Positions 26,075 through 30,119 of a DNA stretch of 33,004 bases are shown piece after piece. Source of the DNA: a virus. Position 1 is the stretch's first letter. Every line of letters begins with the position of its first letter. The notes below the pieces were generated by a model that worked only from the letters and a program-made list of their open reading frames with translations, made no database searches and was not told where the DNA came from. Both the position numbers and the translations under genes were made by a program. The DNA is taken from the IMG/VR virus record IMGVR_UViG_3300010401_000063, positions 1 to 33,004 of that record; one strand, written 5' to 3'.

Positions 26075-26265
26075 CAGCAGGTAATCCTGTACGGGTCCAG
26101 TGGGCCGGGCGGAGGATTCCAGAGAGGCGGTCTAGGGATCACCGGACCTTGCAGTGGCACTGCCACCGGATATGGCATCGGTAAATAGACCGGCCGCGCT
26201 TCCAGAGAGCGAATGCGCTGCTCCAGTTCCTCGATGCGCTTCAACAGGTCTTCGGTTGTCTTCAC
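26074..26265 (-). CDS. Small coiled-coil and proline-rich protein, 63 aa
   Basis: Residues 1-24 are a heptad-like helix (TEDLLKRIEELEQRIRSLEA) and residues 25-63 are Pro-rich (YLPMPYPVAVPLQGPVIPRP, WNPPPGPLDPY) ending in Cys. GTG start overlapping the previous stop by 4 bases. A short helix-plus-Pro tail of this kind could be an adaptor that trimerises and links virion proteins. No family recognised. Confidence 0.5.
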   Translation of the reverse strand: MKTTEDLLKRIEELEQRIRSLEARPVYLPMPYPVAVPLQGPVIPRPPLWNPPPGPLDPYRITC

Positions 26266-28388
26266 GCTGAGGGCCTCACGGCGTTGTAGAGATTGCTACC
26301 CACGGCCTGCTTGAACTCCGAATGCTCGAAGTCGACGATGTTGTCGCCCGGGCCAAAGACCGCACCCTCAGACCCGTAGAGGCCGATGTGCGGGTTGTAG
26401 TCCATGGTGTTATAGCGCCCGGTCGGTTGACCGCTGGCATCGAGGATCGGATAGAGATACCCAATCGGCTTCTTGATGTTCGCGACCAGCACGTCATTGC
26501 GCCAGATCTGCAGCAGACCATTGCCGTTCACGGTCGGGTCCCAGATCACGTGGAACACGTAGACTTCGCGCACGCCCTTGTTCAGCGTGTGGAAGGGCGT
26601 GCCGAGACTCGTCCCGCCCGGCGTGTAGCGATCGAGGTCGTGGAAGTCCTGGTTGAGATCGGGTCGGTACTGCGTCCAGAGGCCGATGTAACCGCCCTCG
26701 GTAAAGATCGCGAGCGGCACGATCGTTTGTGCCTTGGCGCCATTCGGTGCGGGGTTTGGATAGTTCGTGTGGTGCACCTGAAAGAACACCATCTGCCCGC
26801 CCGTGTGATCGGTCTCGGGCCTGCACTGCCAGGCAAAGCCATACCAGACTTCGGTGAAGTTCGGGACCTGCGCCTGAATGCTGATCTCGACACGCTTGTC
26901 GCTCTGGGCCCCCCGAATCAGCTTCTGATGCAGGGCCTTGCAGCGTACGGTCGTACCCGCCGCAGGCATCGTGGGCGGAAGCGGCGTCCCTGCGGCCGGG
27001 ATCACGATATTGCGCGAGAGCACCGTGCTCTCGATCACTTCACGCAGGAAGTTGCCCGTGACCGAATCGGTGTTCAGCGCCGTGCCCGGTGGAACCGCGA
27101 CCCCATCGGCGAAGGTGTAGAAGCTCTTGTAGACCGTCGAGCCCGTCTGGCCACTCGATATCGAGACAGTCTGCGTCTGCGAGACCGCCGAGACATTGCC
27201 GGCGAGGTCTTCGGATTTGACGGTATACGCAATAGATCCCAGACCCGGCGCAGGATCACTGACCGTCAGTCGCCCGGCGGTGGAGATCGAGAGCTCACTG
27301 CAACTCGTCGTGAATACGGTCGTCGAGCGGGACGAACCGCACGGCCCGACATACACCACGAGCGGCATCGGACAACTGTAGGTGTCCTGCAGTGCCCAGT
27401 CAGAGCCCGACCAGCGATAGACCAGAAACGTGCTGAGATCGGTGCGCTCGATCAACTGGTCGCCGGGACCGAGCGTCGAGACGCTGGGGCTGGAGACGAC
27501 GGATGCACCTACTGCCAGCCGTGCCCGCGCACGTGTGTCTGTCGGCCCCTGCCAGGCCTGCACGAACGGGCTGTTGGCATCTGTCGTGGCCCGCACCATG
27601 AGCCCTGAGTGCGCATTGGCGTTCGTCGTACCGGGGGTGGAGATCACCCTCAGCACTGCACGCCATGCGGTTCCGGTCACGCGGACGCCGAGCATGCAGC
27701 CCTCGTCCGTCGTGCCGTTGAAGCCTGCCGCGCCATTCACCGTCAGGTCGTAGCGATTGCCTGCCTGCGTGAAGTTCGCGCTCGTCGTGCTGCCAAAGGC
27801 CATGAGCAGCGGCGCTTCGAGCACATTTGGCGTGACCGTGACGTCCGTGAATTTCGTGCCGTTGCGGTAGAAGTTGATCCGTCGACAGCCGCCCTGTGCG
27901 AGCGTTGCGTTGTAGAGCTCGCTCACCGCTTCGCAGGACAGGCTGACGGGTGCTGCTACTCCCAGCGCTTTCAGCCCGAGCGGGATCGTCGGTGACAGCG
28001 TGTCGGTCCCAATGACCGGGACATACGACCACGGCAGCTGAATGGTTGCGGTCTGGCCCGCATACGTCGCATCGAGGGCCAGAACACCGGTGCCCTGAAC
28101 CGTGCTGGATCGTGCGAGCACATCGCTTGCGAACGTCCAGCCGGCGGTGATCGCGTCATCCCCGGAGATCGAACGCAGCTGGATCAGCGCAGCGCCGGGT
28201 GTCGGCTCCTGCAGGAAGCTGCGTACGTTCTGGCTGAAGGCCGCAGTCAGTCCGAGCAGCGTCGGGAAGGCGCTCGCATCCCACGTGAGCGGGATCGCGC
28301 TCGATCCGTCATCGCCATTGGGGAAGCCAGTATCGATGTTCCCCGAGGGCGTGGGAGCGATGGTGTGGGACCAGCCGGTAAGCGCCAT
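26262..28388 (-). CDS. Modular tail protein with polysaccharide-lyase-like C-terminal domain, 708 aa
   Basis: First gene of the late block. ATG at 28386-28388 is preceded by TTTGGAG, as in the tailspike gene. N-terminal 140 residues form a beta-rich module (WDASAFPTLLGLTAAFSQNV). About residues 145-370 contain an fn3-like start and a LamG-like region (CMLGVRVTGTAWRAVLRVIS, FLVYRWSGSDWALQDTYSC). About 420-708 resemble the polysaccharide lyase family 20/heparin-lyase-like jelly roll: EVWYGFAWQCRPETDHTGGQ, MVFFQVHHTNY, FHVIWDPTVNGNGLLQIWRN and YNPHIGLYGSE. If active it would cleave acidic polysaccharide of the host surface. Lyase assignment is at fold level. Confidence 0.55.
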   Translation of the reverse strand: MALTGWSHTIAPTPSGNIDTGFPNGDDGSSAIPLTWDASAFPTLLGLTAAFSQNVRSFLQEPTPGAALIQLRSISGDDAITAGWTFASDVLARSSTVQGTGVLALDATYAGQTATIQLPWSYVPVIGTDTLSPTIPLGLKALGVAAPVSLSCEAVSELYNATLAQGGCRRINFYRNGTKFTDVTVTPNVLEAPLLMAFGSTTSANFTQAGNRYDLTVNGAAGFNGTTDEGCMLGVRVTGTAWRAVLRVISTPGTTNANAHSGLMVRATTDANSPFVQAWQGPTDTRARARLAVGASVVSSPSVSTLGPGDQLIERTDLSTFLVYRWSGSDWALQDTYSCPMPLVVYVGPCGSSRSTTVFTTSCSELSISTAGRLTVSDPAPGLGSIAYTVKSEDLAGNVSAVSQTQTVSISSGQTGSTVYKSFYTFADGVAVPPGTALNTDSVTGNFLREVIESTVLSRNIVIPAAGTPLPPTMPAAGTTVRCKALHQKLIRGAQSDKRVEISIQAQVPNFTEVWYGFAWQCRPETDHTGGQMVFFQVHHTNYPNPAPNGAKAQTIVPLAIFTEGGYIGLWTQYRPDLNQDFHDLDRYTPGGTSLGTPFHTLNKGVREVYVFHVIWDPTVNGNGLLQIWRNDVLVANIKKPIGYLYPILDASGQPTGRYNTMDYNPHIGLYGSEGAVFGPGDNIVDFEHSEFKQAVGSNLYNAVRPSA

Positions 28389-28397
28389 GGGCTCCAA

Positions 28398-28426
28398 AGA
28401 AAAAGGCCGCTGTGGGGGCGGCCTTT
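28398..28426 (-). terminator. Terminator in front of the late operon
   Basis: Minus-strand AAAGGCCGC/GCGGCCTTT stem (9 pairs, 7-base loop) followed by TTTTTCTTT, ending 10 bases before the first late ATG. It is almost symmetric, so it could also act on plus-strand transcripts. Position after the Q-like gene and tRNA makes it a natural target for Q-dependent antitermination. Confidence 0.8.
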
Positions 28427-28520: not shown

Positions 28521-28602
28521 GGCGGCGGGCAGGATTCGAACCTGCAACTCCGGCTAGTGCCTCGAGGATCACCGGCATTCTATCCATTTGAATTACCGCC
28601 AC
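28521..28602 (-). tRNA. tRNA with enlarged (16-base) anticodon loop; anticodon undetermined
   Basis: Read on the minus strand from 28602. Acceptor stem GTGGCGG/CCGCCGC (7 pairs, one G-U) with an extra outer G-C pair possible. T8-A9. D arm ATTC/GAAT with A14, G18-G19 and A21. Anticodon stem CCGGT/GCCGG. Variable loop AGTT. T arm GCAGG/CCTGC with loop TTCGAAT. All the conserved positions are normal except that the anticodon loop is 16 bases (28555-28570) instead of 7. The loop holds the self-complementary CCTCGAGG. No CCA is encoded. A20 in the D loop would be compatible with an arginine tRNA, and CCT or CGA can be found in the loop, but no reading frame of it is canonical. Confidence 0.65.
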
Positions 28603-28608
28603 CGTTGT

Positions 28609-28977
28609 TCAGCCCTCCATCACTGACAGATGCGCCCCGACTCGCCACCTCGCCCGTCGCAACACATTCTGCGCCTGTCGCTCGCGCATTCGAAGCTTCT
28701 CGGCGAGTTCCGACATCGCCATCCAGCCCTGGTAGTACAGCCGCAAGGCGCGCTGATCGATCTGGCAGCATCTCGCCACACACACATCGACGTGCGCTGC
28801 AGGCTCTGAGAGCACCACAGGCGGCCTCCCCTCCTGACCTGCGCCCATCGGGCCCTGTTCGATCAATCGGCCAAGCAGCGTCTTCTCCGGCCATCCTGCG
28901 ATGCGTTCGCGGGTTTCGGCACCCCACTGTTCGAGACGGATGTGGATGATCTTCGTCTCGGCGTCCATGCGGTTCAT
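28609..28977 (-). CDS. Q-like late antiterminator candidate (HTH protein)
   Basis: 122 aa from the ATG at 28975-28977 (frame open to a TTG at 29031, and a second ATG at 28968). No strong ribosome site decides. The segment KIIHIRLEQWGAETRERIAG is like the start of phage Q/DUF1133-type antiterminators. The C-terminus (RALRLYYQGWMAMSELAEKL, RMRERQAQNVLRRARWRVGA) is a sigma region 4-like helix-turn-helix. Two cysteines lie close together at the centre (VARCCQI). It ends 6 bases before the tRNA, and the late terminator and operon follow. This is the place of a Q gene in lambdoid phages, but the sequence match is partial. Confidence 0.5.
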   Translation of the reverse strand: MNRMDAETKIIHIRLEQWGAETRERIAGWPEKTLLGRLIEQGPMGAGQEGRPPVVLSEPAAHVDVCVARCCQIDQRALRLYYQGWMAMSELAEKLRMRERQAQNVLRRARWRVGAHLSVMEG

Positions 28978-29093
28978 GGTGCGGCGATCACGGGATTCGA
29001 AGACGGGAAGGCTCACGGCGAGTGCGTTCAAGGTTGACCCCGTTCGTTATATGGAAAGCGGCTGGTTTTCATACGATTGTGCGATGAAGCTCC

Positions 29094-29360: not shown

Positions 29361-29709
29361 GGTCTTTCTCGCAGAGCACTTTGGCCTCCTGAGGTTGGTC
29401 GCGGATACCGATCATGTGCTCAGGGGTCTCGCCCTGTTTTCGTCGCCACGCGGTGAACATAGACTTCCCCATGACCGAGTCCATAGAAACCGAGTAGCGC
29501 CCGCACTTCGAGAGTGCGTAGCCCGAGTTGGGTCCGGTGCGAACGGCGGTCTCCCACTCGAGCGGAGGCAGAGGCTTCCGGAGTTCCGCCTTCGGCGTCG
29601 CCCTCTTGGGGACTGCGTCTGGGACATGTCTCCTCAAGACTTCCCACATCTTGTCTTCGGATACATGCCGCAGGGGCCCATGCATCGGGCTGTATGGCGC
29701 TTGACTCAT
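29353..29709 (-). CDS. Hypothetical phage protein, 118 aa
   Basis: ATG at 29707-29709, chosen because it overlaps the HNH stop (ATGA). A longer frame to 29838 runs over the HNH gene. N-terminus HGPLRHVSEDKMWEVLRRHV. C-terminal module SKCGRYSVSMDSVMGKSMFT followed by AWRRKQGETPEHMIGIRDQP and QEAKVLCEKDRE. This small module is common in phage early regions but its function is not known. A Cys at the KCGR turn and one near the end could bind metal. Confidence 0.5.
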   Translation of the reverse strand: MSQAPYSPMHGPLRHVSEDKMWEVLRRHVPDAVPKRATPKAELRKPLPPLEWETAVRTGPNSGYALSKCGRYSVSMDSVMGKSMFTAWRRKQGETPEHMIGIRDQPQEAKVLCEKDRE

Positions 29710-30119
29710 GCCGCTGAACTCCATCTGCGCCGGCCACGCTCTTTCTCGCATTCGGCGTGACGGCCACGAGGGTTCTCGGTTCCATGCTGATAAATCCTCA
29801 TTTTCTGCGGATCGTCGTACTGACCGCAGTAATTGCATTTCAGCCAGTCCGCATGACCACAGGCATCAAGCGCTGCAGTTCGACGATGAATTAGGTTGTG
29901 ATACGCCTGGCTCGGGCAAATCACCAAATTCTCAGGCCGGTTGTCACCCTTGTTCTCATTGACGTGATGGATAACTGCCCCAGCTGGTAGAGGCCGGCCA
30001 AGAACGCCTTCCGCCACGAGTACGTGCTCCCTGACGATTCGGCCACGCACATGTTTCGTCACATAGCGTGACGATTGAGTCATCTGCGGTACAATAGTTG
30101 CGATGTTAACGACCGCCAT
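29706..30119 (-). CDS. HNH endonuclease with C-terminal zinc-ribbon-like segment
   Basis: 137 aa from the ATG at 30117-30119, with an alternative ATG at 30083 (MTQSSRYVTKHV) that starts directly at the AP2/HNH-type N-terminal strand. HNH core: AVIHHVNENKGDNRPENLVI with the His-His-Val, Asn-Asn motif and the later YHNLIH His. The C-terminus CNYCGQYDDP...HGTENPRGRHAEC carries two Cys-x-x-Cys-like elements suitable for zinc. Not next to terminase, so a homing-type or general nuclease is likely rather than the packaging HNH. It is the first gene of this leftward group. Confidence 0.7.
   Translation of the reverse strand: MAVVNIATIVPQMTQSSRYVTKHVRGRIVREHVLVAEGVLGRPLPAGAVIHHVNENKGDNRPENLVICPSQAYHNLIHRRTAALDACGHADWLKCNYCGQYDDPQKMRIYQHGTENPRGRHAECEKERGRRRWSSAA

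Follow-up and report, generated by a model that had tools for sequence, protein, structure and literature searches.

A tRNA-like gene with an intact body and a rebuilt anticodon arm behind a Q-like phage gene, a possible member of a class of non-decoding tRNA mimics

The window analyzed here is a 33,004-base stretch of virus DNA (IMG/VR record IMGVR_UViG_3300010401_000063) carrying P22-like podovirus genes for portal, terminase, major head, head-closure and DNA-ejection proteins. A tRNA-like gene occupies positions 28521..28603 of its minus strand, as delimited by Rfam model RF00005 and by reading of the sequence, and the features around it lie on the same strand. Upstream is a Q-like gene (28609..29031, minus strand, start codon uncertain) with a weak match to PHROG_79 (E = 5e-4) that was also obtained with one of its homologues (1e-4); 5 nt lie between its stop codon and G-1, the first base of the tRNA-like gene. 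Downstream is an intrinsic terminator (28402..28426, minus strand; one found vs. 0.3 expected), and no sigma-70 promoter was found when the interval between the tRNA-like gene and this terminator was searched. The next gene (26262..28397, minus strand, start codon uncertain) probably encodes a tail protein, as its position and size suggest; it gave a sub-threshold match to Pfam Polysacc_lyase, and no viral relatives of it were found. The location between a Q-like gene and a terminator, described in an earlier note on this DNA, thus stands, with a Q match that is weak. An HNH endonuclease gene (Pfam HNH_3) was also observed upstream of the Q-like gene, at 29706-30119 on the minus strand.

RF00005 was matched at 28602-28521 (minus strand) with 45.6 bits (E = 8e-7) in an Rfam cmscan of the window, the gathering score of the family being 29 bits, so the covariance-model run that the earlier note had proposed ended above the cut-off; ARAGORN called no tRNA. 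Coordinates of the parts, all on the minus strand, were taken from Rfam and from reading of the sequence. The acceptor stem consists of GTGGCGG (28596..28602) and CCGCCGC (28522..28528), paired 7/7 with one G-U. The D arm, ATTC-AAATGGATA-GAAT (28577..28593), has its stem paired 4/4 and the T arm, GCAGG-TTCGAAT-CCTGC (28529..28545), 5/5; U8, A14, G18-G19 and A21 are likewise present, and the body is therefore intact, as had been claimed. A feature beyond that note is the G at 28603 (G-1), which is able to pair with C73 (28521) to give an 8-bp acceptor stem. CCA is not encoded after C73. The anticodon arm (28550..28575) is rebuilt: CCGGT and GCCGG, paired 5/5 with one G-U, close a 16-nt loop, GATCCTCGAGGCACTA (28555..28570), in which positions 32-33 are GA. 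The reported 16-base loop is thereby confirmed and, lacking Y32-U33, should prevent the gene from decoding. The loop does contain the self-complementary CCTCGAGG (28567-28560) that had been pointed out, but the weight placed on it finds no support: about 4.7% of random 16-mers with the base composition of the loop would contain an 8-base palindrome, which puts CCTCGAGG near chance, and in folding the loop does not outdo its own shuffles (z +0.76), so that no stability comes from the palindrome. The cloverleaf has an energy of -30.7 kcal/mol vs. a minimum of -33.6 kcal/mol for an alternative fold with a different middle part; the cloverleaf is singled out by the covariance model, not by folding energy alone.

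Several assignments were considered for this structure. As an elongator tRNA, the gene has a body above the family cut-off and lacks the 7-nt loop with Y32-U33. Reading it as class II, with a long variable arm, was rejected, as no 5-bp/7-nt anticodon arm could be drawn by eye. The G-1 opposite C73 recalls tRNA-His, but the GUG anticodon in a decoding loop is absent and histidylation cannot be claimed. Only RF00005 matches in the window, and the permuted arms of bacterial Y RNAs (RF02553) were not found there.

The homologues closest to the Q-like gene, in L002 and L003, are 68% and 61% identical to it, and in neither does a tRNA follow the gene; Rfam likewise found no tRNA in eight related records, of which several are fragments. 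With near relatives lacking it, the window gene has either arrived recently or survived in its lineage alone. Among the relatives examined, none had a normal-loop (7-base) version at this place, which the earlier note had named as the sign of recent damage. No exact match to the window anticodon arm was found in viral contigs, an exact scan for the 5' half of the gene gave nothing, no similar tRNA was found in E. coli genomes, and no relatives of the window capsid gene were found in genome contigs. Among 46 further capsid-protein relatives, one (G016) carries a tRNA-like gene (L094:1500-1584) whose anticodon loop is 19 nt long and which shares with the window gene the G-1:C73 pair and the 5-nt spacing after a stop codon and sits between two structural genes. 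Tracts resembling tRNA with seemingly shortened D arms were also observed in two capsid relatives of the window (L095:1501-1557 and L098:1501-1557).

The G016 gene led to a scan for tRNAs with an expanded middle, using a pattern of canonical D and T arms separated by at least six extra bases, which thus demands that both arms be intact. In viral contigs at least 120 stretches matched; the body was intact in 91 of 122 hits, among the matches listed, and at least 69 distinct tRNA-like genes with an intact body and without a normal anticodon arm were obtained; this sample was drawn with one pattern among the matches listed, and its members are not all independent. The window gene shares the features of this class: intact acceptor, D and T arms, an anticodon arm other than 5 bp/7 nt, and no Y32-U33. 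Genome contigs yielded almost only archaeal intron tRNAs with the same pattern, and two matches in 185 genomes sampled from the taxonomic class of L413 (a Woeseiaceae MAG) were not credible members on reading; tRNA-like genes with rebuilt arms are nearly absent from bacterial genomes. A second pattern, based on the window D loop, was discarded because its matches were mostly chance ones (tRNA body in 2/119).

Y32-U33 is present in 7/47 of the phage genes, close to chance, vs. 24/25 archaeal intron tRNAs (Fisher p = 7e-12). For comparison of the ends, 38 normal phage tRNAs were taken from the viral loci examined. Full pairing of the acceptor (7/7) was seen in 64/85 expanded phage genes vs. 34/38 normal ones, a non-significant difference (p = 0.09) that leans slightly toward more mismatches in the expanded set. 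Fewer of the expanded genes encode CCA (13/85 vs. 16/38, p = 0.002), as would be expected if charging is not needed, and C73 is somewhat commoner in them (16/85 vs. 2/38, p = 0.06). The loops of the class fold better on average than dinucleotide shuffles (mean z -0.59, p = 0.003).

Some replacement loops of this class recur: about three families were seen, with acceptor stems that differ and are compensated, and the window loop is in none of them. One family has a conserved CCCTCATGGTGAAGGRCCAAAACGCCGGGATTAA-like stretch in the anticodon arm with different compensated acceptors (L125, L173, L176, L191, L195, L213); another has CATTTGCGTATT-like loops, with several members placed among normal tRNAs (L108, L128, L160, L172, probably L184); and a possible third has loops of the form GAYATGCTT...CAGAG (L106, L148).

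Such genes are labelled tRNA-Undet or tRNA-OTHER in annotated phages, or are missed. Streptomyces phage Yara (MH019215.1) has two unannotated tRNA-like genes in intergenic gaps (L457:651-734 and L457:1469-1534), with an expanded anticodon arm in one and a truncated arm in the other. The gene with the truncated arm has the 3' half CCGGAGTTGCAGGTTCGAATCCTGC and a CCGG stem in common with the window gene, but its loop is 4 nt rather than 16 and its acceptor and D arms differ. Three Microbacterium phages keep a nearly identical rebuilt-arm gene, flanked by a small gene and the gene for DNA polymerase I. Gene 38 of Microbacterium phage Clock and gene 142 of Streptomyces phage JustBecause, annotated as tRNA-Undet/tRNA-OTHER, resemble the window gene in having an intact body and a non-decoding arm and in lying between phage genes or tRNAs; they differ from it in their acceptor stems and in their arms (shortened in Clock, a nested hairpin in JustBecause), and no description of a function was found for them. 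Other tRNA-related RNAs were also observed in these searches: an unannotated permuted tmRNA (129.5 bits) in Ruegeria phage RpAliso (OR257569.1, L458:1008-1576), adjoined by two Y RNA-like matches, both sub-threshold, and a sub-threshold Y RNA-like match in Microbacterium phage FuzzBuster (MN062720.1, L463:697-759), immediately upstream of an annotated Ro-like RNA binding protein gene.

For the window gene taken alone, the main rival explanation is damage, in which an ordinary phage tRNA took an insertion of about 9 nt in its anticodon loop, has not yet decayed elsewhere and has no function. No relative shares the window loop, the loop has no special structure, C73 and the absent CCA fit relaxed constraint, and near relatives lack the gene, so that the event may be recent. 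We nevertheless hold damage to be unlikely, though well worth weighing, given that every body stem and tertiary position of the window gene is intact, that changes in the class are concentrated in the anticodon arm (in a set whose pattern itself demanded intact D and T arms), and that random damage is not expected to give recurring loop families. The fold could instead serve as "tRNA punctuation", cut by RNase P and a 3' tRNA nuclease so as to split the Q message from what follows. Such processing would suit the stop codon of the Q-like gene 5 nt before G-1 with a terminator behind, the equally tight spacing of the G016 gene between two structural genes, and several solitary class members 3-14 nt after a stop codon. 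It is improbable all the same, because uniform spacing of this kind was tested in the class and not found (median distance to the upstream ORF end, 141 nt), about half of the class lies near other tRNAs (within 2 kb for 32/69 genes, among the matches listed), the message is already ended by the terminator, and a rebuilt loop is unnecessary for processing.

The remaining two explanations are both very improbable. An intron-containing tRNA, spliced to a normal 7-nt loop, would account for an insertion at the usual intron site and for a length similar to that of archaeal tRNAs, and an intron-like origin had been among the suggestions of the earlier note; it is disfavoured by flanks without Y32-U33, by the lack of any group I or II intron match in the Rfam search of the window, and by the difference between the phage class and archaeal intron tRNAs described above, and we know of no archaeal-type tRNA splicing in bacteria. 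Many integrases use tRNA 3' halves, and the gene could on that ground be an attachment site (attP) bearing the 3' half of a host tRNA. The window gene, however, is a complete one in which the 5' half matches the 3' half; its 3' 29 bases (allowing up to 2 mismatches) occur in 0/369 genomes sampled from the taxonomic class of L413, which may not be that of the host, and no integrase was found among the proteins scanned from a record that may be a fragment.

The reading that we prefer, with confidence that stops somewhat short of even, is that the window gene is a phage-encoded non-decoding tRNA mimic whose body was kept and whose anticodon arm was rebuilt. Its observed part is the anatomy, the missing decoding loop and a plan common to many phage genes. 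A phage tRNA ancestor would have kept its acceptor, D and T arms, such that the RNA could be folded, processed and bound like a tRNA, and rebuilding of the anticodon arm would have left it unable to decode. RNase P would trim the RNA after its transcription behind the Q-like gene, and the RNA would then engage a putative protein able to recognise the elbow or acceptor of a tRNA; one possibility is a sponge for an enzyme that modifies or attacks tRNAs. This reading is favoured by the intact body, the G016 parallel, the size of the class and its near absence from bacterial genomes, and further by the loss of Y32-U33, the recurring loop families, the near-normal acceptor pairing, the rarer CCA, the loop stability of the class and the Yara gene. 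Counting against it are the lack of any relative found for the window gene, a loop that lies outside the families and is not unusually stable, the slight lean to acceptor mismatches, and a class sample drawn with one pattern, with non-independent members, among the matches listed. The earlier suggestion that selection keeps the body while the decoding part changes is accordingly supported for the class of phage genes; as no relative carries the window gene, it cannot be demonstrated for that gene alone.

More broadly, and still more tentatively, phages may possess an extensive and so far undescribed class of non-decoding tRNA mimics, with a full elbow and acceptor and with the anticodon arm as an exchangeable module, directed against proteins that bind tRNA bodies or working through them, the window gene being a member. 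The literature searched, which included few subscription journals, held no description of phage RNAs that combine a tRNA body with a rebuilt anticodon arm. The reason for tRNA genes in phages has long been a question, the usual answers being codon supply and the replacement of tRNAs that host nucleases have cleaved; a gene with a tRNA body that cannot decode fits neither. If such genes are functional, tRNA mimicry would be a separate phage strategy, for which a list of candidate genes is now available; if they are debris, counts of phage tRNAs are too high wherever "Undet" genes are included.

Among known systems, bacterial Y RNAs (YrlA, RF02553) are non-decoding tRNA mimics with a permuted order of arms, usually found with a Ro protein. 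They resemble the window gene as non-decoding tRNA-like RNAs, and some phages carry them, as weak RF02553 matches suggest; they differ from it in their permuted arms and separate Rfam model. Archaeal intron-containing tRNAs also combine a tRNA body with extra anticodon-loop bases, but keep the exon halves of the loop, including the Y32-U33 that is lost in the window gene. The tRNA genes of Stx2 phages lie just behind Q. They share with the window gene a place in the Q/late-gene region and, unlike it, are ordinary by prediction, two for Arg and one for Met (PMC7946995). Retron effectors that cut tRNA can be countered by phage tRNAs (PMC11555353), and van den Berg 2023 (PMC10264068) proposes that phage tRNAs with mutated anticodon loops withstand the tRNA nucleases of the host. 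The latter tRNAs are, like the window gene, of phage origin and altered in the anticodon loop; a search of that article's text found no insertions or changes of loop length, and its tRNAs, unlike the window gene, are proposed there still to serve translation once host tRNAs have been cut.
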